Positions 11,675 to 25,120 of a stretch of 25,460 nucleotides of DNA are shown here, piece by piece (position 1 is the stretch's first letter; every line of letters begins with the position of its first letter). The position numbers were made by a program, and so were the translations under genes. The notes below the pieces were generated by a model, which saw only the letters and a program-made list of their open reading frames with translations, did no database searches and was not told where the DNA came from. Source of the stretch: a virus; IMG/VR virus record IMGVR_UViG_3300031787_000756, positions 1 to 25,460 of that record, one strand, 5' to 3'.

Positions 11675-12208
11675 TTAGAAAATTCTTTTACTAACCCCGA
11701 TTTGATGCATCTTTTGCAGCGGCTGGTATTGATACTCGAACAAATACTTGTTATCTAAGTAAGCCACTTTACCGCTAGGCTGAAGCAAAGAGTTAATTCC
11801 TGCGCCAATATACAAACCTTTTGGCTTTTGTACAATAGTCTTGGTCTCTGTATTCGTAATTGTGTTCGTAACTACTGGTACACTATACTCAGTCTTAGCG
11901 GTCATTTTAAGCACCTCTCCAAGCACTTCTCCGCTAACCTGTGTACTTCCATACTCAAATGGAAAAGTAGTCTCAAATGCATTAATAGTAGGCTTGTAAT
12001 CAACCAAAATTGTATCCCTTAAAAACTCTGTTTTAATCTTAGTTTTTGGCACATAAATAGTGTCGACACTTTCATTGTATACGGTGTCAGTTCTTACTTC
12101 TGTTACAACTTTATAAGTACTTTCATACTCATCAGAAGGATAAAGCAAAACTGTAACAATGCAACCTAAAGTAAAAAATACCAATCCTTTTAGAATTTCA
12201 TCTTTCAT
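11675..12208 (-). CDS. Envelope-anchored protein at the end of the lysis operon, spanin-like candidate
   Basis: This 177-residue protein begins MKDEILKGLVFFTLGCIVTV. One hydrophobic segment (residues 8-22) acts as a signal anchor; the cysteine at 16 lies within it and is not in a good lipobox. The rest (KVVTEVRTDTVYNESVDTIY, KTKIKTEFLRDTILVDYKPT, then VSGEVLGEVLKMTAKTEY) would be periplasmic with alternating strands. The C-terminal 45 residues (KGLYIGAGINSLL ... YLFEYQYQPLQKMHQIGVSK) end in Phe like many outer-membrane beta proteins. It directly follows the endolysin with a one-base gap. Two-membrane contact and place in the cassette suggest a spanin-type role in breaking the outer membrane, but there is no lipoprotein partner and no proof. 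Confidence 0.75.
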   Translation of the reverse strand: MKDEILKGLVFFTLGCIVTVLLYPSDEYESTYKVVTEVRTDTVYNESVDTIYVPKTKIKTEFLRDTILVDYKPTINAFETTFPFEYGSTQVSGEVLGEVLKMTAKTEYSVPVVTNTITNTETKTIVQKPKGLYIGAGINSLLQPSGKVAYLDNKYLFEYQYQPLQKMHQIGVSKRIF

Positions 12209-12209
12209 A

Positions 12210-12815
12210 TTAAGCTTTTTCTAAAAGTGAATAGTACAATTTAAATTTAGCAATTCTGTCAGCAAGCCCATGCGTACCACCATTCACTCTTTTAGTAACA
12301 GCGGTTACTGTAGCATCATCAGCACCTTTTGAGCAAATGTCCCAAAGTTTATTCTTGTCGAAGAACCAAATTGCTGAGTCCATTGGATACTTTGTCGCTA
12401 CTAGATCTGGGTTTGCAACACAGTCTTCTTTAATGAAGTCAGAAAATGCCTTGTAGTTTGCTTTTCCAGTTAACTGGATATACCCTCTACCACGGAATTT
12501 GAATCCTTCCTTAGAAGCCTCATCTCCATTTCCCATTCTATTTGCATAAACTCTAGACCCAATAGCCTCGCTATTTCTAGCGTACTTCATTGCAGTAATG
12601 TTGTCAGCAAAGTACTTAGGGAATATCTTTCTAAGGCCATCAGCAGAATAGTTTAGGTTCTCAGAAACATATTGAAAGTTTCCCGATTCATGACCGATCT
12701 GTGCTAGAAAATGCGCGAGATGTAAAGGGTTTTTAATGTTGTATTTTTCAACAATCTGCACCATATAAGTAGATGCTGCCTTTGGTAGTTTTGCTGCTAG
12801 ATTTGTAGTATTCAT
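12210..12815 (-). CDS. Endolysin, glycoside hydrolase family 19 (chitinase-like)
   Basis: This 201-residue protein begins MNTTNLAAKLPKAASTYMVQ. It is a single GH19 domain. The catalytic acid is in FLAQIGHESGNF (Glu43), followed by YANRMGNGDEASKEGFKFRG and the family signature GRGYIQLTGKANY. It ends with WFFDKNKLWDICSKGADDAT and RVNGGTHGLADRI. In phages, this fold cleaves the sugar backbone of peptidoglycan. It has no signal peptide and no wall-binding domain, so it needs a holin to reach the wall. The upstream PAS-membrane gene overlaps its start by ATGA, and a spanin-like gene follows. The start choice is fixed by that overlap. Confidence 0.93.
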   Translation of the reverse strand: MNTTNLAAKLPKAASTYMVQIVEKYNIKNPLHLAHFLAQIGHESGNFQYVSENLNYSADGLRKIFPKYFADNITAMKYARNSEAIGSRVYANRMGNGDEASKEGFKFRGRGYIQLTGKANYKAFSDFIKEDCVANPDLVATKYPMDSAIWFFDKNKLWDICSKGADDATVTAVTKRVNGGTHGLADRIAKFKLYYSLLEKA

Positions 12816-13564
12816 TCTTTTGATTTTTTATCTTCTGAAGTTGCGTATTTAATACCCATGATTGTGCCTACTATAGAGAAGGCATTTGTTAATAATACTG
12901 AAAACATATTGCTCCAAGTTGAGCCTATAATCTGCGTATCCTTATTTGATAAAATTGCAAAGGAGTACATTAGGGTGGTGATAAATCCTACGCTCATAAT
13001 TACGAACAAAGCAGACTTTACAATCACCTTAATTAACTCGTTTTGACTCTTCTTGATAGTTGCGTCCAAGTCATTTAGCGCTGCGTCCTTTTCTATTTCA
13101 ATGGCAGCTTTTAACTTGTTAGAGTTTTCCAACTCAGCCTTTATACTATTTGAAAGTTCCTCAATTTTATTCTTGCTTACAATAGTTTGACTTATATCGG
13201 TTGCAATTTTCATTATTTTAGTAATCGATCCGCTTTCATCAAAGATTGGGTTGTAAGTCGCCTGCAAATAGATTGGGCTTCCGTCTATTTTACGTCTTTC
13301 AAATTCACCTTCAAAATACTTCCCGTCTCGTAGCGTTTCCCAAAATTTAGTATACTCATCAGACTTTGAATATTCGTAACTCACAAATATTGAGTGATGC
13401 TTCCCGATTAATTTGTTATGCTCATCTTCACCTAACCCCATTGCCTTCAAGAAGATTACATTTACCCCAAGAATAAAACCATTTAAGTCGAAGTAAATAA
13501 TCGCGTTGCTTCGATTAATTGCCTCCATTCGACTCAATAGTTCCTCCTTGCTTAGGTTCTTCAT
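12812..13564 (-). CDS. PAS-domain protein with coiled coil and two C-terminal membrane helices, in the lysis operon
   Basis: This 250-residue protein begins MKNLSKEELLSRMEAINRSN. Residues about 18-125 form a PAS domain of the type found in chemoreceptors. It has 'IIYFDLNGFILGVN', 'IGKHHSIFVSYEYSKSDEYT', 'FWETLRDGKYFEGEFERR', 'IDGSPIYLQATYNPIFDESG' and 'KIMKIATDIS'. Residues about 130-178 are a coiled coil. Two hydrophobic segments follow, about 181-205 (VKSALFVIMSVGFITTLMYS) and 217-239 (SNMFSVLLTNAFSIVGTIMG), then a charged tail. There is no kinase, methyl-accepting or output domain. With no signal sequence, PAS and tail should be cytoplasmic. ATGA overlaps link it to the holin-like gene before and the endolysin after, so it is made together with them. 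A regulated holin or antiholin is the main inference. Confidence 0.88.
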   Translation of the reverse strand: MKNLSKEELLSRMEAINRSNAIIYFDLNGFILGVNVIFLKAMGLGEDEHNKLIGKHHSIFVSYEYSKSDEYTKFWETLRDGKYFEGEFERRKIDGSPIYLQATYNPIFDESGSITKIMKIATDISQTIVSKNKIEELSNSIKAELENSNKLKAAIEIEKDAALNDLDATIKKSQNELIKVIVKSALFVIMSVGFITTLMYSFAILSNKDTQIIGSTWSNMFSVLLTNAFSIVGTIMGIKYATSEDKKSKE

Positions 13565-13791
13565 TCAGTGGGTTTTTTGAATATCTTTTCAGCAGCACTA
13601 ATTCCAAGCGCAGCAGCAGACAAAGCAGCTACTGAATATACAAGAGCCTCAGATGGCTCATTGACTGCATCGTGGTTAGCATATAGCGTGTAACAAAGCG
13701 CGATAGCACTAAACACTCCAACAAATCTTTTGCTTGACGCTTCTCCGTTTTCGGATAGAAACCCTTTTGCCCAAATTAAAAACTTATTCAT
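13561..13791 (-). CDS. Holin-like small membrane protein
   Basis: This 76-residue protein begins MNKFLIWAKGFLSENGEASS. It has two hydrophobic segments, about residues 22-38 (RFVGVFSAIALCYTLYAN) and 49-66 (ALVYSVAALSAAALGISA), followed by a basic end (EKIFKKPTE). Two close helices, small size and position before the endolysin fit a class II-type holin. The 'SS-RF-G-----AL----Y' start occurs in other Bacteroidota phage holins, to my recollection. The start lies two bases after the stop of the previous gene; the end overlaps the PAS gene by ATGA. Confidence 0.78.
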   Translation of the reverse strand: MNKFLIWAKGFLSENGEASSKRFVGVFSAIALCYTLYANHDAVNEPSEALVYSVAALSAAALGISAAEKIFKKPTE

Positions 13792-13793
13792 AA

Positions 13794-14003
13794 TTACTTC
13801 TTAAAGATTTTGCGCCAGATATTTGTAACATCATTCAAAAAAAACTCACTTTTTTTAATCTGCTCCCATAATTTGACTACCAAACCAAGAAACGTGAATA
13901 TTAAAATTAGGAATTTAAGTGACTCGTTCATATCGATTATCGAGGTAACTGTCCCTATAACGCCTAAACCCAGAACTTGCTCGAACGGTGGAATATTACT
14001 CAT
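13794..14003 (-). CDS. Small membrane protein at the start of the lysis operon
   Basis: This 69-residue protein begins MSNIPPFEQVLGLGVIGTVT. Residues about 8-22 are moderately hydrophobic, and residues 27-44 (SLKFLILIFTFLGLVVKL) form a clear membrane helix. An aromatic and basic end follows (DVTNIWRKIFKK). It is the first gene after a strong terminator and a candidate promoter. It may be a second holin, an antiholin or an unrelated membrane protein; sequence alone does not decide. Confidence 0.72.
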   Translation of the reverse strand: MSNIPPFEQVLGLGVIGTVTSIIDMNESLKFLILIFTFLGLVVKLWEQIKKSEFFLNDVTNIWRKIFKK

Positions 14004-14895: not shown

Positions 14896-14909
14896 ATTGT
14901 TTTTGTTTA
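14896..14909 (-). promoter_or_regulatory. TAAAC leader element before the 114-aa gene
   Basis: The minus strand has TAAACAAAAACAAT-ATG. TAAAC ends nine bases before the ATG, one less than in the other four copies. It overlaps the last codons and stop of the fibre gene. Confidence 0.42.
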
Positions 14910-17900
14910 TACGTAATTACCTAATAAGTCTACTAATACTCCATTTATTTGTACTCTAATAAGCGCATTGTTTGTAGCGGCGCCACCTCTAGCATTTCCT
15001 AATCTCCAGTCAACAGCTGCTGTTTGTGTACCTGCTGTAAGTGTTCCTGTTCTAAACGCTCCATCTACATATAGCCTAGCACCTACATCCGTTGTCGTTC
15101 CAATCAAGACGTTGCCGCCAGAGGTTATGCGCATTCGTTCGGTGTCGGCTGTGTTAAAAAGCAATGGAACGCTTTGAACGCTACTTAATACCGTGTTTAT
15201 TGAATTTGTGTAAAAATAGCCTCCTCTAGTTGACCCGTAATTTATTTCCAGAATTGAGTTAGACGTTCCGCTTATTGTTAAGGCTCTATCAACCGCAGCG
15301 CTATTTGGACTAGCCGTCCCAATCCCAACGTTGCCGCTAGGAGTTACTTGATAAGCATAAGAGCCATCGGTATTATTATAAAGTCCAAAGTTTCCGTTAT
15401 TAAGAGAATACAGATGCCAATCTTTACCAGTTGATGCGGTTGTATTATTTATTCTAACACTTGATAATAATCCAGTTCCTGTAAACGTACCAGCCCCACT
15501 AACCTGCAACCTTGCTCCGTTGTCTGAGGTTGTGCCGACTAGGAGGTTGCCGCCAGAGGTTATGCGCATTTTTTCACCACTCGCGCCAGTCTCAAATGCC
15601 ATTACGCCCCTTGTCCACAAAGCCAAATCCGTAGTTGCTAAACCAGAAATTGCATTGCTTCCCAATGCGACAATGCCGTTTAATGTACCAGATGACGTTA
15701 AAGACAATCGAACTCCAGTAGAATCCGTTGAATTTAATGTAAGTAATCCAGAGCCAGCGGAATTTACTTGCAACCTCGCTCCGTTGTCCGTTGTCGTTCC
15801 AATCAAGACGTTGCCGCTGGAGTAATTAATTACTAAAGGAAATCCATTAGTCCCAACAGAGTAAAACCCAAAGTTATCTGAGTTTTCATAAATGCCAGTA
15901 AACCATCTTTGAGAGCCAACACTAAAATAACCCATTCCAGCCGATGCGCTAGTTGCCCCTCTATTTGCGCCATAGGTTCCGTATGTTGTGCCAGATAAAT
16001 AAACACCGCTAGAGGTTCCATAAGCACCGCTAACCGTAGCCGTCCCACTAACCTGAAGCCTCGCTCCGTTGTCTGTGGTTGTGCCGACTAACAGGTTGCC
16101 GCCTGAGGTTATTCTAGCGCGTTCGGTTCCTAAATTTCCTGGATAAGTTCCTGACCAAAAAGCAAAAGCATTAGTTCCTGCGGGTTGACCTATTCCCCAA
16201 TCAGCAACAGACTCTTGGGTAAATTTCATTATCGCACCTGTTTGAGAGGAAGTTGCGTTGTTAAAAATTTCAAATATAATACCTGTTGTTGGATTATTGG
16301 CATATACAGAAAGTTTTGTACCTGGACTAGCCGTCCCAATCCCAACGTTGCCGCCTGAGGTTATTGTTACTCTAGCCTCTGCACCTGATGTACCATTATA
16401 AAAAACAAACTTTCCATCAGTTTCAATTAATTGTTGAGCAATTGCAACAGAATCGCTACTTGTATTGTAAAATCTTAATCCTCCTACATTTCCAGATGTT
16501 CTCGCTGATTTAAAATCAAGTCCTACAAAGGCAACACCTTCTCTTAATGTTAGGTCAGCGTCAGTATTTATCCCTTGTGTACCCGCACCAATAGCAGCCG
16601 TCCCACTAACTTGCAATCTTGCTCCGTTGTCTGAGGTTGTGCCGACAAGGAGGTTGCCACCGCTGGTTAGCGTCATCGCTTGGGTGAAACTGATTGCGTT
16701 GCCAGCCGTTCCTGAAGGGGCGGTTCTCCATCCGTGAGTTCCTCCACCTTGGAAATAATTAGTTGCACTTACACTTGATGCTATATATATCCAAGAACTT
16801 CCATTCCAAAATGCGTTTGATGAAAGCTGCATCCCATTTGTATCAGTTGAAGCCAATGATACGTTATTAACTTGTAATGCTTTTGCAATTATACCGCTAA
16901 CGCCCCACGCACTAGGAGTTACTCCCAAGCCAAGGTTTCCGCTTGTTGCTAGAACTAAGTCTGAGCTGTTTTCTCTAGCAGATAGAGACAAAGGCAAATA
17001 AACTCCGCCACTTATATAATTAGAACTTATTAAATTATATCCGCTATTATTTGGTCTAAAATAAATAGCGTGAACATTTGCATTTTCTATTAACTCTAAT
17101 GCTAATGGTCTTCCGCTTGCAGCATTTATTACAAATGTTCTAGCATTTATCCCTGTACTATTAAATCCACCAAATCCACCTCCATCATATAAGGCACTAT
17201 TCCCAATCGTTGAAGCTCCAGTAAACTTTGGCAAGTAGTTAGTCGTGCCAGTTCCTGTGACTGGATTGGTTAAAGCGTTTTGCTTAGAGTTAAACGTTGT
17301 CCAATCAGTACTGCTTAGGAATCCACTTTGTGAGCCACTAGCTTGTTGAATAGTAATGTTAGGAGTAGTGCCACCGCTCGAAAATAATGGACTTGTTGCT
17401 GTAACCGCAGTTACATATCCACTAGTAAGCTGACTAAGTGTAACGAACTCATTTGAGTTAACCGCGCTACCTCCAATTACTCTTCCATTGAAGTTAGCAA
17501 CAACACCAGCAGGTAGATCAGCAATAGCCCCAGTTCCAGCGTTAACAACACCAGTTGTCTTGCCTACAATAATACCAGTAGAAAACTGCTGTACGCCTGT
17601 ATTGTAAGCGTACACTGGGTATCTACCACTTGGGTTATTACCGTAGTAGTCAAGTAAGTTTGAATTAATAGATGCACTTAAAAGTCTTTCTCCTGTAACT
17701 AGTACACCTCTAAAGAATGATATAGGAGTTGTCTCGTATCCAACACCATTTCTATTGAACGTGTTTACAAAGCTCCATGTAGCCTCACCACTTGGCACCA
17801 ACTCATTCTGAGAGTAGAACAACTTCAACCCATAAAGAGTATCTGTTCCAATCTTAAAGTTCAATACATCTCCAGACCTTACAATAGTCTTAAGACCAGT

Positions 17901-20900
17901 AACAGTCTGATCAGTTCCTAAAGTTACGTATCCGCTTAAATCAGGAGCGTAGTTAGGAATATTTAAAGTAGCTCCTACTAATGTAGCAGGGCCACTTGTT
18001 CCAGTAGTGGTAAGTGTAATAACATTCTGTTTACCATTAAATGTAATCCAGTCTGCACTGCTTAGCAATCCAGTTTGTGTAGCAGTGGCAACAGTAGAGG
18101 GGATAGTAACAGTCTTAGTGTCAATAGCAGTGATATGTCCCTCAGCAGAAGATGTAACGCTGTCAACAACATTAAATGATCCACCAAAAGACGGAGTCTG
18201 AGTAGATGTTGTATCTGTTCTCGATACAGAAGCATGCGTAAGGGTAATTGTATTGTTAGTCGCTTGGTTAGCACTAAATGTTCCTGACCCTGAAAGCACT
18301 CCCGTACCCTGAACAGTAAGAATACCATCCTTAATGTCACCAATTAAAGGGTAGAACGCTGAGTAATCAGATTGAACAGCAACAATGTTACCAACTCTAC
18401 CGAATACACTGCTTACTGAATCACTGTTATCGACCTTCTGCCAAGCAGTATCATGGAATACAATCCAGTCCCCTACCTGCCAATCGTTAATCCCATTAAT
18501 GTTTGTTGTTCCTGCTACGCTTACAATATAGAATGCGCCTTCTGTTCCAACCCCTGAAGTAATAGTAGGAGTATTTGTTGATGCGTTCCAAGTACCCTGA
18601 TATTGCAATCCACCAACTAATTGGTTTACTTGATGCTGAAGTTTACCAAACGCAGTTAATATTGAATCCGTACTAACAATTGCATTACCAGTTATATTTA
18701 GTCCTGTTAATACTTTTCCTGTTACAGCAGAATTTAATAATGTTACACTTGCAGCACCTGGACCACTAGCAGTAGCCTCACCTGTAAGTGAAGTAATGTA
18801 GTTACCTTGAGGGGCTGGAGTATATCCAAGAATAGTGCTAATTGTTGCACTCTTCCAAAGATTAAGTGTTGTGTCTCTGTATAGTAATCCGTTATTTATA
18901 AACGGTTCAGCAGATACGTCATGAAGTTCCTCAAGCTCATATCCATTGTCAATCTTTACATAGATCTTACCATTGTTAGCGTGAGCGTACTCAACGTATC
19001 CAAGGATAACGGTATGCTGAGGGGCAACTGGTTTTATGTTTGTAATTGCCCCAGCAATGGTTGGACTCAAGTAAAGCACATCACCGTCATTCCAAGTTTC
19101 ACCCTGAAGATTACCAGTAGTGTTTACGTTTACAATCTGACCAATATTAATAATAAATCCATCTTGATTTTTTGATATGTTCTCACAAACCAAACCAAGG
19201 GTCGAAGCACTATTTAAGTCATTATTAGCCTGAGCTAATGAAACAGCAAGCCTTTGTCCTTGAGCTCCAGATACTTTTACAACTTGATAGTTCGTTCTTA
19301 ATAAATCAACATCAGTATTATTACGAACTCTAGATATCACGCTCTGTCCAATCGGAACACTGTATATATTACCCTTAACAGATAGACGTACAGTTCCGTC
19401 AGTATTGTCCCAGGACATCACTCCTTCAGCGGAAGGAATATTTGTTGTTGTTGTGTTAAATTGAGCAAAGTCACCTATTAATCCATAGGTGCCAAGGTTG
19501 ACATCTTGGGTTGCTCCTGTGTAAGGAACATACCCTGTTAATGATGGGAACGTAGCTAAAGAACCATCTCCCCTAACATATTCCAAAATAGTACCAGCAC
19601 CTACAACTGTTAACACTCCAGCTCCTATAACAGGGCTGTTAGATACAGTAAATGCAGATGGCATAGAAAGTCCAACTGAAGTAACGGTACCTACATTCCA
19701 TATTCTATCTGCCGATAGATCGTATGTAGTTCCATTAATTGTTAACTGTCTAGTTCTATAAGCATACCTGGTATCACCCCAAGTAGTATCAAAAGCGATA
19801 TTTACGTCTGATGACAAGTTGCCCCCACCAGTTAAACCAGTGCCAGCGTTTATTGATCTTGTAGTAGGTACGTATTGACTAGTGTCTACAGAACCGTCAG
19901 CCTTCAAGAACTGAGCAGATGTACCTCCAGCTTTTATGAATGAGTTAGCTGTAATATTGTTTGAACCAAGATTGACGTTAGCATTTGCTCCAGTATAAGG
20001 AACAAACTTATTGTCAGCCTCAGTTTTAGTATAAGCGTCAGTAATTCCATACCCACTTAATGTGGTTGGAGTGTTTGTTATTTTTGACCAGTCAATTGAT
20101 CCAATCGAATCACTTGAAATAAGTCCAAACAATAAGTTTCCACCAGATCTTAAAAGCACATGTCCGTCAGTCGTAGCCTGAATGTCAGCTGGGTCACCAG
20201 TAGTCGATGACGCACGTCCTATTACAGACGTTCCTGCGCTGTTCCTGAGCTTCGAATCTGTTACAGCATTATCTGATATGGTTGTAGAAATGGACGTCTT
20301 ACCGCTGCCCGTAACGTCTCCAGAGAGCGTTATGGTTTGGTTCTCCAAAAGGAATGGAGGAACGCCAGTAATCTTTGAGAAAGCAAGCGTGTTAATCCAC
20401 GTAGGATTATCGTAAGCTTGAGAAAGTCTTGGGTAGAAAGATTGGTAGTCTGCTTCCAAAGCCAGGATAGCTCCAATTCTTCCAAAGACACTTGTAACAG
20501 CATCAGTATTATCTACCTTCTCCCAAATTAATCCATTAGATATAATCCAGTCACCTACTGCATAATCAACACCTCCAAATACTCCAGCTACAGAAACAAC
20601 GTAGTAGTGTCCTTTTTCTTCTGGTACAAGAGGATTTAGTGTTGGTGTATTAGTAAGCGCGTTCCAGGTTCCCATGTACTGTACCTGGCCAATGATTGAG
20701 TCAGGAATTTGAGACAATGGGACTTTACCGCCAGCATCCAAAGAAGCAACTCCGTTAGGAACTCCTACGGAAGTTTTGTCAACCTTAAGATCTAACAAAA
20801 TCTCAATATCTCCCTCAAGGGTTGATATAGCGCTGTTAAGTTGACCTAAAGTTGCAGACTCAGTTGTGAGAACAGCAGGCGGATGGTTTATACGTCTTAA

Positions 20901-21281
20901 ACTAGATATTGGCTGACCTAAGTCGTTTGGGATAACAAAAATGTCACCATCCCCACCAATAACTCTAAGTGCGTCAGCACCTGAAACAGTACTATTTATT
21001 ACGGCTCCATTTGAAGCGTAAAGACTTCCACTAACAGCAAGCTTGTAACCTAGAGAATTTACACCTCCGATTACAATGTTTGACCCATGTTGAAAAATAA
21101 CTGAATCACCTATTACCTGTGCTGATGTAAAAACAGGAACATAACCAGGTGTCCCAGATCCACTAATGTTACTAGCAAAAAAATCAGACACATCAATTCT
21201 AATGTTCTGATCATCAGCATAACCAACAATGAAGTCTAAATCCGCAGGATCGCTTACTAATAGAAAGTCCGAAAATCTCAT
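14907..21281 (-). CDS. Giant repetitive tail fibre / tail protein
   Basis: This 2,124-residue protein begins MRFSDFLLVSDPADLDFIVG. The N-terminal part has phage-fibre patterns such as GTPGYVPVFTSAQVIGDSVI and 'VPYTGA---VNLG'. A roughly 100-residue unit occurs twice (about residues 200-310 and 890-985): 'QY-GTWN--TNTPT', '--YYVVSVAG', 'VGDWI', 'W-KVDN-D-V-SVFGR-G', 'DY--FYP'. The last third carries beta-repeat units of the 'SGGNLLVGTT-DNGARLQVSG' and 'GNVGIGTASP' kind, common just before the tip of fibres. It ends VDLLGNYV with no recognisable S74-type self-cleaving chaperone. It likely forms a long trimeric fibre for host contact. The head of the protein and its neighbours suggest virion location; receptor binding is inferred. 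Confidence 0.9.
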   Translation of the reverse strand: MRFSDFLLVSDPADLDFIVGYADDQNIRIDVSDFFASNISGSGTPGYVPVFTSAQVIGDSVIFQHGSNIVIGGVNSLGYKLAVSGSLYASNGAVINSTVSGADALRVIGGDGDIFVIPNDLGQPISSLRRINHPPAVLTTESATLGQLNSAISTLEGDIEILLDLKVDKTSVGVPNGVASLDAGGKVPLSQIPDSIIGQVQYMGTWNALTNTPTLNPLVPEEKGHYYVVSVAGVFGGVDYAVGDWIISNGLIWEKVDNTDAVTSVFGRIGAILALEADYQSFYPRLSQAYDNPTWINTLAFSKITGVPPFLLENQTITLSGDVTGSGKTSISTTISDNAVTDSKLRNSAGTSVIGRASSTTGDPADIQATTDGHVLLRSGGNLLFGLISSDSIGSIDWSKITNTPTTLSGYGITDAYTKTEADNKFVPYTGANANVNLGSNNITANSFIKAGGTSAQFLKADGSVDTSQYVPTTRSINAGTGLTGGGNLSSDVNIAFDTTWGDTRYAYRTRQLTINGTTYDLSADRIWNVGTVTSVGLSMPSAFTVSNSPVIGAGVLTVVGAGTILEYVRGDGSLATFPSLTGYVPYTGATQDVNLGTYGLIGDFAQFNTTTTNIPSAEGVMSWDNTDGTVRLSVKGNIYSVPIGQSVISRVRNNTDVDLLRTNYQVVKVSGAQGQRLAVSLAQANNDLNSASTLGLVCENISKNQDGFIINIGQIVNVNTTGNLQGETWNDGDVLYLSPTIAGAITNIKPVAPQHTVILGYVEYAHANNGKIYVKIDNGYELEELHDVSAEPFINNGLLYRDTTLNLWKSATISTILGYTPAPQGNYITSLTGEATASGPGAASVTLLNSAVTGKVLTGLNITGNAIVSTDSILTAFGKLQHQVNQLVGGLQYQGTWNASTNTPTITSGVGTEGAFYIVSVAGTTNINGINDWQVGDWIVFHDTAWQKVDNSDSVSSVFGRVGNIVAVQSDYSAFYPLIGDIKDGILTVQGTGVLSGSGTFSANQATNNTITLTHASVSRTDTTSTQTPSFGGSFNVVDSVTSSAEGHITAIDTKTVTIPSTVATATQTGLLSSADWITFNGKQNVITLTTTGTSGPATLVGATLNIPNYAPDLSGYVTLGTDQTVTGLKTIVRSGDVLNFKIGTDTLYGLKLFYSQNELVPSGEATWSFVNTFNRNGVGYETTPISFFRGVLVTGERLLSASINSNLLDYYGNNPSGRYPVYAYNTGVQQFSTGIIVGKTTGVVNAGTGAIADLPAGVVANFNGRVIGGSAVNSNEFVTLSQLTSGYVTAVTATSPLFSSGGTTPNITIQQASGSQSGFLSSTDWTTFNSKQNALTNPVTGTGTTNYLPKFTGASTIGNSALYDGGGFGGFNSTGINARTFVINAASGRPLALELIENANVHAIYFRPNNSGYNLISSNYISGGVYLPLSLSARENSSDLVLATSGNLGLGVTPSAWGVSGIIAKALQVNNVSLASTDTNGMQLSSNAFWNGSSWIYIASSVSATNYFQGGGTHGWRTAPSGTAGNAISFTQAMTLTSGGNLLVGTTSDNGARLQVSGTAAIGAGTQGINTDADLTLREGVAFVGLDFKSARTSGNVGGLRFYNTSSDSVAIAQQLIETDGKFVFYNGTSGAEARVTITSGGNVGIGTASPGTKLSVYANNPTTGIIFEIFNNATSSQTGAIMKFTQESVADWGIGQPAGTNAFAFWSGTYPGNLGTERARITSGGNLLVGTTTDNGARLQVSGTATVSGAYGTSSGVYLSGTTYGTYGANRGATSASAGMGYFSVGSQRWFTGIYENSDNFGFYSVGTNGFPLVINYSSGNVLIGTTTDNGARLQVNSAGSGLLTLNSTDSTGVRLSLTSSGTLNGIVALGSNAISGLATTDLALWTRGVMAFETGASGEKMRITSGGNLLVGTTSDNGARLQVSGAGTFTGTGLLSSVRINNTTASTGKDWHLYSLNNGNFGLYNNTDGSYAYQVTPSGNVGIGTASPNSAAVDRALTISGTSNSILEINYGSTRGGYFYTNSINTVLSSVQSVPLLFNTADTERMRITSGGNVLIGTTTDVGARLYVDGAFRTGTLTAGTQTAAVDWRLGNARGGAATNNALIRVQINGVLVDLLGNYV
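15088..15118. repeat. 31-bp exact direct repeat, copy 1 (partner 15787-15817)
   Basis: These 31 bases recur at 15787-15817 without change. The offset is 699 bases (233 codons), so recombination would delete in frame. They encode the 'GNVLIGTTTD' unit of the fibre. Confidence 0.85.
15306..15337. repeat. 32-bp exact direct repeat, copy 1 (partner 16323-16354)
   Basis: The same 32 bases occur at 16323-16354. The offset is 1,017 bases (339 codons), in frame. They encode the 'GNVGIGTASP' unit of the fibre. Confidence 0.85.
15511..15539. repeat. 29-bp exact direct repeat, copy 1 (partner 16618-16646)
   Basis: These 29 bases recur at 16618-16646 at an offset of 1,107 bases (369 codons), in frame; similarity extends imperfectly for about 20 bases more. 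They encode part of 'GTTSDNGARLQ'. A related, less exact copy lies near 16050-16090. Confidence 0.85.
15787..15817. repeat. 31-bp exact direct repeat, copy 2
   Basis: Second copy of the unit at 15088-15118, inside the fibre gene and in the same frame. Confidence 0.85.
16323..16354. repeat. 32-bp exact direct repeat, copy 2
   Basis: Second copy of the unit at 15306-15337, inside the fibre gene and in the same frame. Confidence 0.85.
16618..16646. repeat. 29-bp exact direct repeat, copy 2
   Basis: Second copy of the unit at 15511-15539, inside the fibre gene and in the same frame. Confidence 0.85.
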
Positions 21282-22737: not shown

Positions 22738-23322
22738 ATGAATTCATTCAAAAGGAGAGCAAAAAGAGTTTGGGATAAATATGACGTTCCAATCCGAAAT
22801 GTGCGTGACATTTACGACAGACGTCACCCTGAACACGACTACCTAAAGTACTGGAGAGTCATCCGTTACTGGACCATGAGAAAGTACAACCTAAAAAGCC
22901 AGGACCTGGACATGCTCCTATTCCTTTACAGCGAGGGTTACTTCGATAACGAACGCTTTGAAGAGTACAACAACGTCCTAAGCTGGGACATTGACAGGTT
23001 CAGAAGACTACTTGAAGAAGGTTGGATACACGTGTGGAGGGAAAAAACTTACAACTCCAGGGCATTATACGAAATAACCGAAAAGGGAAGGCGTGCCATC
23101 AACACGATGTACAAGAAGTTGAACCGTGAAGAGATCTCAACTGACAGGCACACCAACCCTATGTTCAAGAAGGATACAATCTACACTGACAAAGTCATGA
23201 GAAACTTCATCCGCAAGATGAACCTAGAGATGAAAGAAGCTAAGCGGAGAAATCGTCAGGAGATTGCAGAACGACGACAACGTCTCGCTCAAGTATTACC
23301 GAAAGAATCTCCCCTGAAATAA
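22738..23322 (+). CDS. Winged-helix-like DNA-binding protein (only plus-strand gene)
   Basis: This 194-residue protein begins MNSFKRRAKRVWDKYDVPIR. Residues about 45-130 look like a MarR-type winged helix: KYNLKSQDLDMLLFLYSEGY (helices 1-2), FEEYNNVLSWDIDRFRRLLE (recognition region), EGWIHVWREKTYNSRALYEI (wing), then TEKGRRAINTMYKKLN. The last 60 residues are basic and helical (MNLEMKEAKRRNRQEIAERR). Similar phage proteins of Bacteroidota viruses are known to me by pattern only. It is the one gene on the plus strand and divergent from the small-gene cluster, so a regulatory role is plausible. Its last 83 bases overlap the end of groES on the other strand, and a terminator for it lies inside groES. 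Confidence 0.82.
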   Translation: MNSFKRRAKRVWDKYDVPIRNVRDIYDRRHPEHDYLKYWRVIRYWTMRKYNLKSQDLDMLLFLYSEGYFDNERFEEYNNVLSWDIDRFRRLLEEGWIHVWREKTYNSRALYEITEKGRRAINTMYKKLNREEISTDRHTNPMFKKDTIYTDKVMRNFIRKMNLEMKEAKRRNRQEIAERRQRLAQVLPKESPLK

Positions 23323-23521
23323 TCATCTCATGAGAAGCAAACTTGTCATAGTAAATAAACTCGCCATCCTTGACAGAGTTTACATCGCTACCAACCTTGA
23401 CAATCTGACCTATGCCATAGCGCATTTTGTTTTTATCGTCAGCCGATAGTAGAAGCCCGACTTGTGTTCGGGCTTCTTTTTCTATCTTTCTAATTACCAG
23501 GTACTTACCAATTGGTCTCAT
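23240..23521 (-). CDS. groES: Co-chaperonin GroES (phage-encoded)
   Basis: This 93-residue protein begins MRPIGKYLVIRKIEKEARTQ. Length and order of strands fit GroES: opening strand (GKYLVIRKIEKE), mobile loop (ARTQVGLLLSADDKNK, with VGLLL in place of the usual GIVL tripeptide region), MRYGIGQIVKVGSDVNSVKD, GEFIYYDKFASHEM, and closing ISGEILSVILERDVVVVL. GroES caps the GroEL ring and closes the folding chamber. The ATG shares one base with the groEL stop (TGATG), so both come from one message, with groEL first, the reverse of the usual bacterial order. The coding sequence contains a perfect hairpin that acts as terminator for the other strand, and its 3' end overlaps the plus-strand gene. Confidence 0.88.
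   Translation of the reverse strand: MRPIGKYLVIRKIEKEARTQVGLLLSADDKNKMRYGIGQIVKVGSDVNSVKDGEFIYYDKFASHEMIISGEILSVILERDVVVVLQSPDDFSA
23451..23481 (+). terminator. Plus-strand intrinsic terminator inside groES
   Basis: AGAAGCCCGA and TCGGGCTTCT form a perfect 10-bp stem (23451-23460 and 23468-23477) with a 7-base loop, followed by T-rich sequence on the plus strand. It lies about 130 bases beyond the stop of the plus-strand gene. On the minus strand there is no T-run, so groES should not stop here. It covers codons 15-24 of groES. Confidence 0.82.
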
Positions 23522-25068
23522 CAGTTCGAAATTATTGCATTAGTAGTTAAAATTGTATTTGCTACCGAGACCGCGTTCTTCAGAGCGGTCTTGGTTACTT
23601 TTAGGGGATCAACGATCCCCATCTCGAACATATCGCCAAGCTCGTCGGTTTTTACGTTCAATCCCTCGTTTCCAAGAGTCAAGTTCTCAATTACGTTGAT
23701 GGTCTTCTCAAGGTCAATGTCCGCGTTCTTGATGATTTGCTTCAGTGGTGCCTGGATGGCATTCACAAAACACTCCACAACCTTGTCGTTGTAGCTCTCC
23801 TTGAGCAACTTTTGCCCAACACGGTACAGAGCCAGCCCACCACCAGCAACGATACCCTCTTCCATGGCGGACTGCACTGCGCAAACTGAGTCATCTACCC
23901 TATCGTACAGCTCTTTTTGCTCAACATCTGAGTTTCCACCCACGTGAATGATGCCAACTCCACCAGTTAGGTACGAAATACGCTGTTTGATGAAGTCTCT
24001 ATCTGTTTTTTTAGTAGCCTGGTCGTGTGCAGCCTTTAATTCGCTCACCAAAATGTCAAGTGTCTCCGTATTGTCTACGCTTGGAGACGGTACTAGCACG
24101 GTTTTCTCTCTTGAGACCACTACTTTCGAAGCGAGACCAAGATCTGTGAACGAAATTAGCGCAGTATCATCACCTCCAAGGGCACTAAAGAAACGACCAC
24201 CAGTCGCAACGGCCAAATCTTGCATCAACTCGTGCTGTTTATAGCCAAACTGAGGTGGCTCCACGATGCAGAACTTCAAGTTGCTCTGCATTTTGTTGAG
24301 AGCAATGGTGTTTGTAAAGTTCTGAGAGCACGGTGCCACAATCAACAATGGTTTCCGACTCTGCACAAACGACCCAAGTAGGTTAATGATTTGCTCAATG
24401 GACGAAAGCTCAATGTCAGTCATCAAGATGTAGCAATCCTCAGCCACAAACTCGTCATTCTTCTGATTGTTCACGAACAATTTGTTCGTATATCCCCTAT
24501 CCATGCGGATGCCCTTGATCACCTCAGCGTAGGTCTCCGTAGTCATGGACTTCTCCACCGTCACCAGCCCATTCTTGCCAACCTTCTTGTACGTGTCAGC
24601 AATTAACTTCCCAATGTGCCGATCATTATTGGCAGAGATCGTCGCAATGTCCTCGATCCACCTGTTGGTTGTCCGAACCGACACCTTCTCAAGCTCCTTC
24701 TCAGTCCTCTTCGCCAACCCCTCAATCTGCTTCACGCTGCTCCAGTCAGCATTGATCGCCATCCCACCCTCAACTAGGGCCTCCGTAATGACAACTGCTG
24801 TCGTAGTTCCATCCCCTGCTGTCAACGCAGTACGTTCACTGGCCTCCCGAACGATTCGAACAGCCATGTTCTCCAACGCGTCATCCAGGACAACACTCTT
24901 GGCAACAGTTACACCATCTTTGGTAATAGTAAGCCCACGTGTGTGGTTAGGTGAGTCAATGATCACCGTCTTTCCGCTAGGACCTAGCGTGCTCTTCACA
25001 GCAGCCGATAGGGTCTTTACACCCTGCAAAAGTTTTGTGCGACCTTCATGGTCAAGGTATACCTTCAT
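23521..25068 (-). CDS. groEL: Chaperonin GroEL (phage-encoded)
   Basis: This protein has 515 residues from ATG 25068 (MKVYLDHEGRTKLLQGVKTL). An ATG at 25119 would add 17 residues but falls upstream of the promoter-like element. Core motifs are present: GPSGKTVIID (nucleotide), ITKDGVTVAK, AGDGTTTAVV, ANNDRHIGKLIA, KNGLVTVEKS, and RVDDSVCAVQSAMEEGIVAG, where the second Asp of RVDD matches the ATPase Asp398. The apical region has RGYTNKLFVN and LLIVAPCSQNF. The usual Gly-Gly-Met tail is absent; it ends NAIISN. It is expected to form 14-part rings folding phage proteins such as the capsid. The 5' half is visibly richer in G and C than the rest of the window. GroEL from phages is known (for example giant Pseudomonas phages), but a linked GroES is less common. 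Confidence 0.94.
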   Translation of the reverse strand: MKVYLDHEGRTKLLQGVKTLSAAVKSTLGPSGKTVIIDSPNHTRGLTITKDGVTVAKSVVLDDALENMAVRIVREASERTALTAGDGTTTAVVITEALVEGGMAINADWSSVKQIEGLAKRTEKELEKVSVRTTNRWIEDIATISANNDRHIGKLIADTYKKVGKNGLVTVEKSMTTETYAEVIKGIRMDRGYTNKLFVNNQKNDEFVAEDCYILMTDIELSSIEQIINLLGSFVQSRKPLLIVAPCSQNFTNTIALNKMQSNLKFCIVEPPQFGYKQHELMQDLAVATGGRFFSALGGDDTALISFTDLGLASKVVVSREKTVLVPSPSVDNTETLDILVSELKAAHDQATKKTDRDFIKQRISYLTGGVGIIHVGGNSDVEQKELYDRVDDSVCAVQSAMEEGIVAGGGLALYRVGQKLLKESYNDKVVECFVNAIQAPLKQIIKNADIDLEKTINVIENLTLGNEGLNVKTDELGDMFEMGIVDPLKVTKTALKNAVSVANTILTTNAIISN

Positions 25069-25089
25069 AATAGTAAATTTGATTGTTCG

Positions 25090-25120
25090 CAAATATAGGA
25101 AACCAAGATCAATAATCAAG
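25090..25120 (-). promoter_or_regulatory. Promoter of the groEL-groES operon (CTTG-N19-TATATTTG)
   Basis: The minus strand has TATATTTG (25090-25097) and, 19 bases upstream, CTTG (25117-25120), three of four bases of the -33 consensus TTTG. The -7 element is 21 bases before ATG 25068. A short inverted repeat TGACA-N4-TGTCA lies four bases further upstream, possibly an operator. Confidence 0.65.

Follow-up and report, generated by a model that had tools for sequence, protein, structure and literature searches.

The window, by which we mean the whole 25,460-nt stretch of viral DNA that was analysed (IMG/VR record IMGVR_UViG_3300031787_000756), carries on its minus strand a set of adjoining ORFs of which several resemble lysis genes. 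In the 5' to 3' order of that strand, two small membrane ORFs come first: one of 69 aa (13794..14003), a second holin or antiholin candidate by hydropathy with no family match in Pfam, PHROGs or NCBIfam, and one of 76 aa (13561..13791), the first holin candidate, likewise by hydropathy, whose family is present in 48 of the 80 loci closest to the gene studied here. This gene (12812..13564) encodes a 250-aa protein with a PAS domain, a coiled coil and a two-helix membrane hairpin, an assignment based on domain matches, a structural model and relatives. It is followed by a 201-aa GH19-type endolysin (12210..12815; phrog_181 endolysin, 3e-67; Pfam Glyco_hydro_19, 5e-8) and by a 177-aa protein with one N-terminal membrane segment (11675..12208), putatively spanin-like by position and topology only and with no family match in Pfam, PHROGs or NCBIfam. 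The ATGA overlaps with both lysis neighbors described in the sequence-only reading are present on the minus strand, at 13561-13564 with the 76-aa ORF and at 12812-12815 with the endolysin ORF. A fixed ratio of the products, redox or oxygen sensing and a holin function, as proposed in that reading, go further than the observation itself.

By terminase, the nearest isolate relatives are Flavobacterium and Cellulophaga phages, so that the host of the window phage is likely to belong to the Flavobacteriia. Elsewhere in the window, again on the minus strand, lie a gene for a GroEL-like chaperonin (23240-25119; Cpn60_TCP1, 6.5e-51), overlapped by a 93-aa ORF that could be a cpn10 partner, and a gene for a 2124-aa tail-fibre-like protein (14907-21281) in which segments of the SGGNVLIGTTTDNGARLQVSG / NVGIGTASP type recur many times. 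Phage record MW202828 has genes annotated as GroEL and as 10-kDa chaperonin, and a Flavobacterium elemo phage has one annotated as cpn10.

The layout of the 250-aa protein agrees with the earlier description. A PAS domain (residues 18-126; 13187..13513) is followed by a coiled-coil linker (residues 127-176; 13037..13186), which is the least conserved part, and by two predicted membrane helices (residues 177-206, 12947..13036; residues 210-244, 12833..12937), all on the minus strand. In Pfam, the N-terminal part matches PAS_3 (4e-9, residues 35-120, 37 bits against a cut-off of 25.6), PAS_9 (1.6e-8, residues 26-126), PAS (8.8e-8, residues 20-124) and PAS_4; in NCBIfam it matches sensory_box (2e-11). 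An AlphaFold2 model of the monomer, built on 27 relatives, shows a PAS-type alpha/beta fold, a long helix at 125-206 and a second helix at 210-244, with a mean pLDDT of 77.6, and a Foldseek search with this model supports the PAS fold. By hydropathy, the protein spans the membrane at residues ~177-207 and ~220-240, and both C-terminal segments come out as predicted helices. Neither Pfam nor NCBIfam detects a kinase, HAMP or MCP domain, which rules out a chemoreceptor or a stand-alone kinase, and the full length of the protein is not assigned to any known receptor family outside lysis. Pairwise comparisons of the gene with its relatives gave dN values between 0.10 and 0.31, with dS saturated or above 1. 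The family scores, the purifying selection and the existence of hundreds of relatives rule out a chance likeness to PAS domains or a false ORF.

The kinship of the PAS domain bears on what it might sense. By profile, its nearest counterparts are MmoS, Aer, phototropin LOV and NifL; by fold, LOV, NifL and MmoS, and the nearest solved structures are those of MmoS, Aer and NifL. The PAS domains of MmoS, Aer, phototropin LOV and NifL bind flavin. In an alignment with Aer, whose FAD-binding residues are R57, H58, D60, W70 and N85, residues R57, H58 and N85 are replaced by V61, S62 and R90 and D60 by E64, while W75 and the histidine of an upstream GxxH are conserved. The protein further differs from Aer in lacking the HAMP and MCP parts. 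A published survey assigned FAD, by sequence, to several Pseudomonas receptor PAS domains (PMC8694187). Two BFVD entries, R9ZZL0 from Cellulophaga phage phi19:1 and S0A2B2 from phi18:3, also matched; both come from cultured phages, are unannotated and have a PAS-like predicted fold.

Scans of viral contigs returned 266 relatives of the whole protein and 551 of its C-terminus, and a DNA-pattern scan for the hairpin found the same hairpin behind other N-termini as well. In all, the N-terminus is one PAS domain, two PAS domains, a GAF domain (Pfam, 2.3e-17) or a small domain, some 65 aa long, for which no relatives are known; Foldseek with the small-domain protein returned nothing significant. 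In an HMM tally over the loci, the small-domain form was counted 121 times, the single-PAS form 70 times, the double-PAS form 53 times and the GAF form 3 times, and each of 33 records checked had exactly one hairpin protein. The size of the family (more than 500 viral contigs) is a lower bound, and its loci share ancestry and were in part picked out by the search patterns. Judged from these sequences, the family is defined by its membrane hairpin and not by the PAS domain, and the N-terminus is exchangeable.

The hairpin carries the motif DTQIIGSTWSNMF..LLTNAFSI.GTIMG.KYA. Across 407 proteins, the loop and helix 2 (residues 208-242 of the window protein, the KDTQIIGSTWSNMFSVLLTNAFSIVGTIMGIKYAT region; 12839..12943, minus strand) are nearly fixed in amino acids, whereas synonymous codons vary freely; LLTNAFSI and G..GxKYA are kept near 100%, and the small and polar residues (N, S, T, G) of helix 2 are conserved. 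Pairwise dN in the hairpin is 0.03-0.22, with dS above 1. Since the residues are fixed and the codons free, selection acts on the protein, and a conserved DNA element is ruled out. The invariance of GSTWSNMF, QIIGSTW and GTIMGIK arises partly by construction, because these strings served as search patterns; LLTNAFSI never did and is fixed too, so that the conservation is not a pure artefact of the searches.

Among 50,697 phage records and 72,556 plasmids, the hairpin queries gave no match, and they gave none in Pfam, PHROGs, NCBIfam or PADLOC, except for a weak, putative match of phrog_1544 to the coiled coil and membrane part (E between 4e-4 and 9e-4), a family that also matches a nearby 104-aa ORF. 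No cultured representative was retrieved by tblastn with the C-terminus of the PAS protein, two small-domain proteins, the receiver described below or the 76-aa neighbor. A host-genome scan with N-terminal patterns gave one unrelated PAS protein and nothing else. Among viral sequences, two fragments labelled "Listeria phage" and a faecal contig matched in the PAS domain alone. Within the collections searched with the hairpin (viral contigs, phage records and plasmids), the family appears to be phage-only.

The small-domain form sits directly behind two other phage genes, one for a histidine kinase and one for a stand-alone receiver (~145 aa). Among loci with adequate flanks, the receiver is present in 71 of 73 small-domain loci (70 of which also have the kinase), whereas none of 94 sensor-fused loci has either gene; for the receiver, Fisher's test gives p ~1e-45 when loci are taken as independent, although they are related. 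The receiver gene lies within some 30-40 bp on the same strand in 67 of the 73, and a reverse search starting from the receiver found the hairpin protein in all 48 loci with enough downstream sequence. The exclusion extends to whole records of 62-182 kb, in which the receiver was found in 0 of 22 sensor-fused phages as against 11 of 11 in the positive control. With a HATPase_c domain (Pfam, 8e-13), an H box (HAAKILRHDMHS) and a Response_reg match in the receiver (2e-8) whose alignment shows an invariant acidic pair (D12/D13), phospho-acceptor D66 and K119, the two proteins are, by their predicted domains and conserved residues, a two-component kinase and receiver. The receiver has no DNA-binding domain. 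The sensors of the kinases are PAS, PAS-PAS or GAF-PAS-PAS, the same kinds of domain as are fused to the hairpin elsewhere. Two neighboring genes were noted by eye: one for an SmpB-like (SsrA-binding) protein immediately upstream of the kinase gene (locus L178, 9764-10195, minus strand), and one for a late-sigma-factor-like phage protein just upstream of the kinase-receiver-hairpin operon (locus L179, 2937-3662, plus strand).

In a tree of PAS domains, those fused to the hairpin form, together with one kinase PAS, a supported group (100/98) nested among the kinase PAS domains. In the hairpin tree, which rests on 82 columns and is rough, the PAS fusions and the GAF fusions each form a clade of their own among the small-domain forms (95/85 and 100/98), so that at least two replacements are likely. 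The simplest history suggested by these trees is that kinase sensors became fused to the hairpin two or more times, with loss of the kinase, the receiver and the docking domain. The distribution, in which a fused sensor stands in one set of phages where kinase and receiver stand in the other, is a "Rosetta stone" pattern and argues that kinase, receiver and hairpin belong to one pathway, in which they would be in physical contact.

As the earlier reading anticipated, close relatives lie inside lysis operons. In the 80 closest loci, the gene is found among lysis-type genes, beside endolysins of unrelated kinds (GH19, peptidase M15 and GH24 phage lysozyme), and an amidase-type endolysin occurs in kinase-linked relatives (locus L243). 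All sensor-fused loci with enough flank have an endolysin or a holin-like gene within 3 kb (44/44 single-PAS, 28/28 PAS-PAS and 3/3 GAF forms; 75/75 in all). By eye, a phosphoesterase-like gene of 293 aa was seen in cluster C13 (locus L010, 7214-8095, plus strand, and other loci); in nine of the lysis cassettes that contain the PAS gene, it comes after the endolysin. For the kinase form, 29 of 68 loci are without a recognised lysis gene within 3 kb. GH19, Amidase_2 and M15_3 genes were located, as was the hairpin gene, in 36 large records of this form. Two of these (G029 and G035, the 129-kb and 294-kb records behind loci L194 and L283) gave identical hairpin and endolysin coordinates; one apparently contains the other, so one was dropped and the pair counted once. 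An endolysin lay within 3.5 kb of the hairpin gene in 16 of the 25 large records with a recognised endolysin, against 2.0 expected by random placement (p ~6e-13, records taken as independent), and far from it in the remaining 9. The link of the kinase form to lysis is thus strong, yet not universal. The phage of MW202828, whose terminase is 70% identical, is without the hairpin protein, yet carries genes for an endolysin and for a multi-TM holin-like protein, which indicates that lysis in this group can do without the hairpin protein.

Altogether, the evidence, all of it comparative, makes it probable that the protein regulates phage lysis as a signal-gated membrane protein, wired to its signal either directly or by a phosphorelay. 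The domain layout, the exclusion between fused sensors and kinase-receiver pairs, the lysis setting and the selection acting on the hairpin can be read from sequence; the lysis function, the signal and the mode of action are inferred from them. The lysis-timing device proposed from the window alone gains good support in so far as it calls for a membrane protein that belongs to the lysis cassette and responds to a signal; what that proposal had missed is the kinase and receiver version, and that the hairpin, rather than the PAS domain, is the family's defining part. The description of the C-terminal end as holin-like fares less evenly: predicted membrane helices are indeed encoded beside an endolysin, but no holin family in Pfam, PHROGs or NCBIfam matches, and either of the two other small membrane ORFs of the window could be the holin.

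The main alternative concerns this last point. The hairpin might itself form the hole or channel, as a sensor-gated holin or pinholin, instead of regulating a separate holin. The two C-terminal helices predicted here are flanked by charged, lysine-rich stretches and would fit a class II holin topology, the conserved small and polar residues of helix 2 would suit such a role, and in PAS-PAS loci such as L068, L069 and L072 no other small membrane gene lies between the hairpin gene and the endolysin on the same strand. On the other hand, separate holin-like genes are found near 43 of 44 single-PAS loci, and a size of 250-370 aa is untypical of holins, as is near-total conservation: known holins diverge fast, and a nearly frozen hairpin would be unusual for a plain hole-former. 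We regard this alternative as possible though unlikely.

It is doubtful, too, that the protein is a late-infection device for signalling at the membrane or for its protection, serving superinfection exclusion, energy-state control or defence and merely travelling with the lysis genes. The many kinase-type loci away from recognised lysis genes would suit such a role, and the combination of a sensor, a coiled coil and two membrane helices recalls the two-TM effectors of bacterial defence. Against it, fused forms always accompany lysis genes, across unrelated endolysins, and the enrichment near endolysins in large genomes is strong; the lack of any match to PADLOC models speaks in the same direction and rejects a known anti-phage defence effector. 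A captured bacterial receptor (derived from Aer, an MCP or a kinase) engaged in host-type signalling unrelated to lysis would account for the likeness of the PAS domain to receptor PAS domains, but is very improbable given the missing HAMP, MCP and kinase parts, a hairpin without match outside viral contigs in the collections searched with it, and the outcome of the host-genome scan.

Regulation of lysis by a gated hairpin can be compared with known systems. Phage lambda S105/S107, the S21 pinholin and T4 T with RI/RIII are likewise small membrane helices encoded beside an endolysin; control of lysis timing is probably shared with these holins and antiholins, and the two-helix layout is that of class II holins, but the hairpin matches none of their families and is almost invariant. 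No holin or antiholin described so far is known to have a PAS or GAF sensor attached or to receive its input from a histidine kinase, and in the open-access literature we found no sensor-fused holin and no phage kinase wired to lysis. With T4 lysis inhibition, in which RI/RIII act on the holin T, the shared principle would be that a signal from the cell delays or releases lysis. There, superinfection is sensed by a periplasmic antiholin; here, the sensing part would be a cytoplasmic PAS or GAF domain or a phosphorelay, and no homology is seen. Bacterial LytSR-LrgAB/CidAB likewise ties a two-component system to holin-like proteins, but the LytSR regulator controls lrgAB transcription, while the phage receiver is devoid of an output domain, and its gene accompanies that of the putative membrane target; again, homology is not seen. 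Like other histidine kinase-receiver systems, the relatives in large phages use HATPase_c kinases and CheY-like receivers; their output would be a phage-only membrane hairpin, and the sensor fusion would short-circuit the pathway in smaller phages.

We propose the following mechanism for a signal-gated regulator. The two-helix hairpin would be the working part and the N-terminal part its exchangeable input. In the window phage and its nearest relatives, one or two PAS domains, or a GAF domain, presumably cytoplasmic, are joined to the hairpin through the coiled coil, with both termini of the protein presumably inside the cell (N-in/C-in). In large phages, sensors of the same types are part of the phage histidine kinase, which would pass phosphate to the stand-alone receiver; the latter would then dock on the small N-terminal domain that takes the place of the sensor on the hairpin. 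In either case, a change in the sensor or the receiver would be transmitted through the coiled coil, and the hairpin would permit or block permeabilisation of the membrane. It could do so by gating the neighboring small holin in the manner of an antiholin, or by opening itself. The holin-like gene in nearly all single-PAS loci and the unusual conservation favor the former; the PAS-PAS loci without another small membrane gene before the endolysin favor the latter.

In the usual picture of lysis timing, the clock lies inside the holin, and T4 lysis inhibition is the classic sensed exception. The present data make it an evenly balanced proposition that phages of aquatic Bacteroidota-type hosts have a pathway of their own, consisting of kinase, receiver and hairpin or of a PAS or GAF fusion, that reads the state of the cell and times lysis at the membrane and not through transcription. 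It would also be a phage two-component system whose output is likely to be a membrane protein instead of a promoter. If the proposal is correct, active measurement of the cell ahead of lysis is a trait of many uncultured phages, and the question of whether phages sense host physiology to time lysis becomes directly testable with a short operon.
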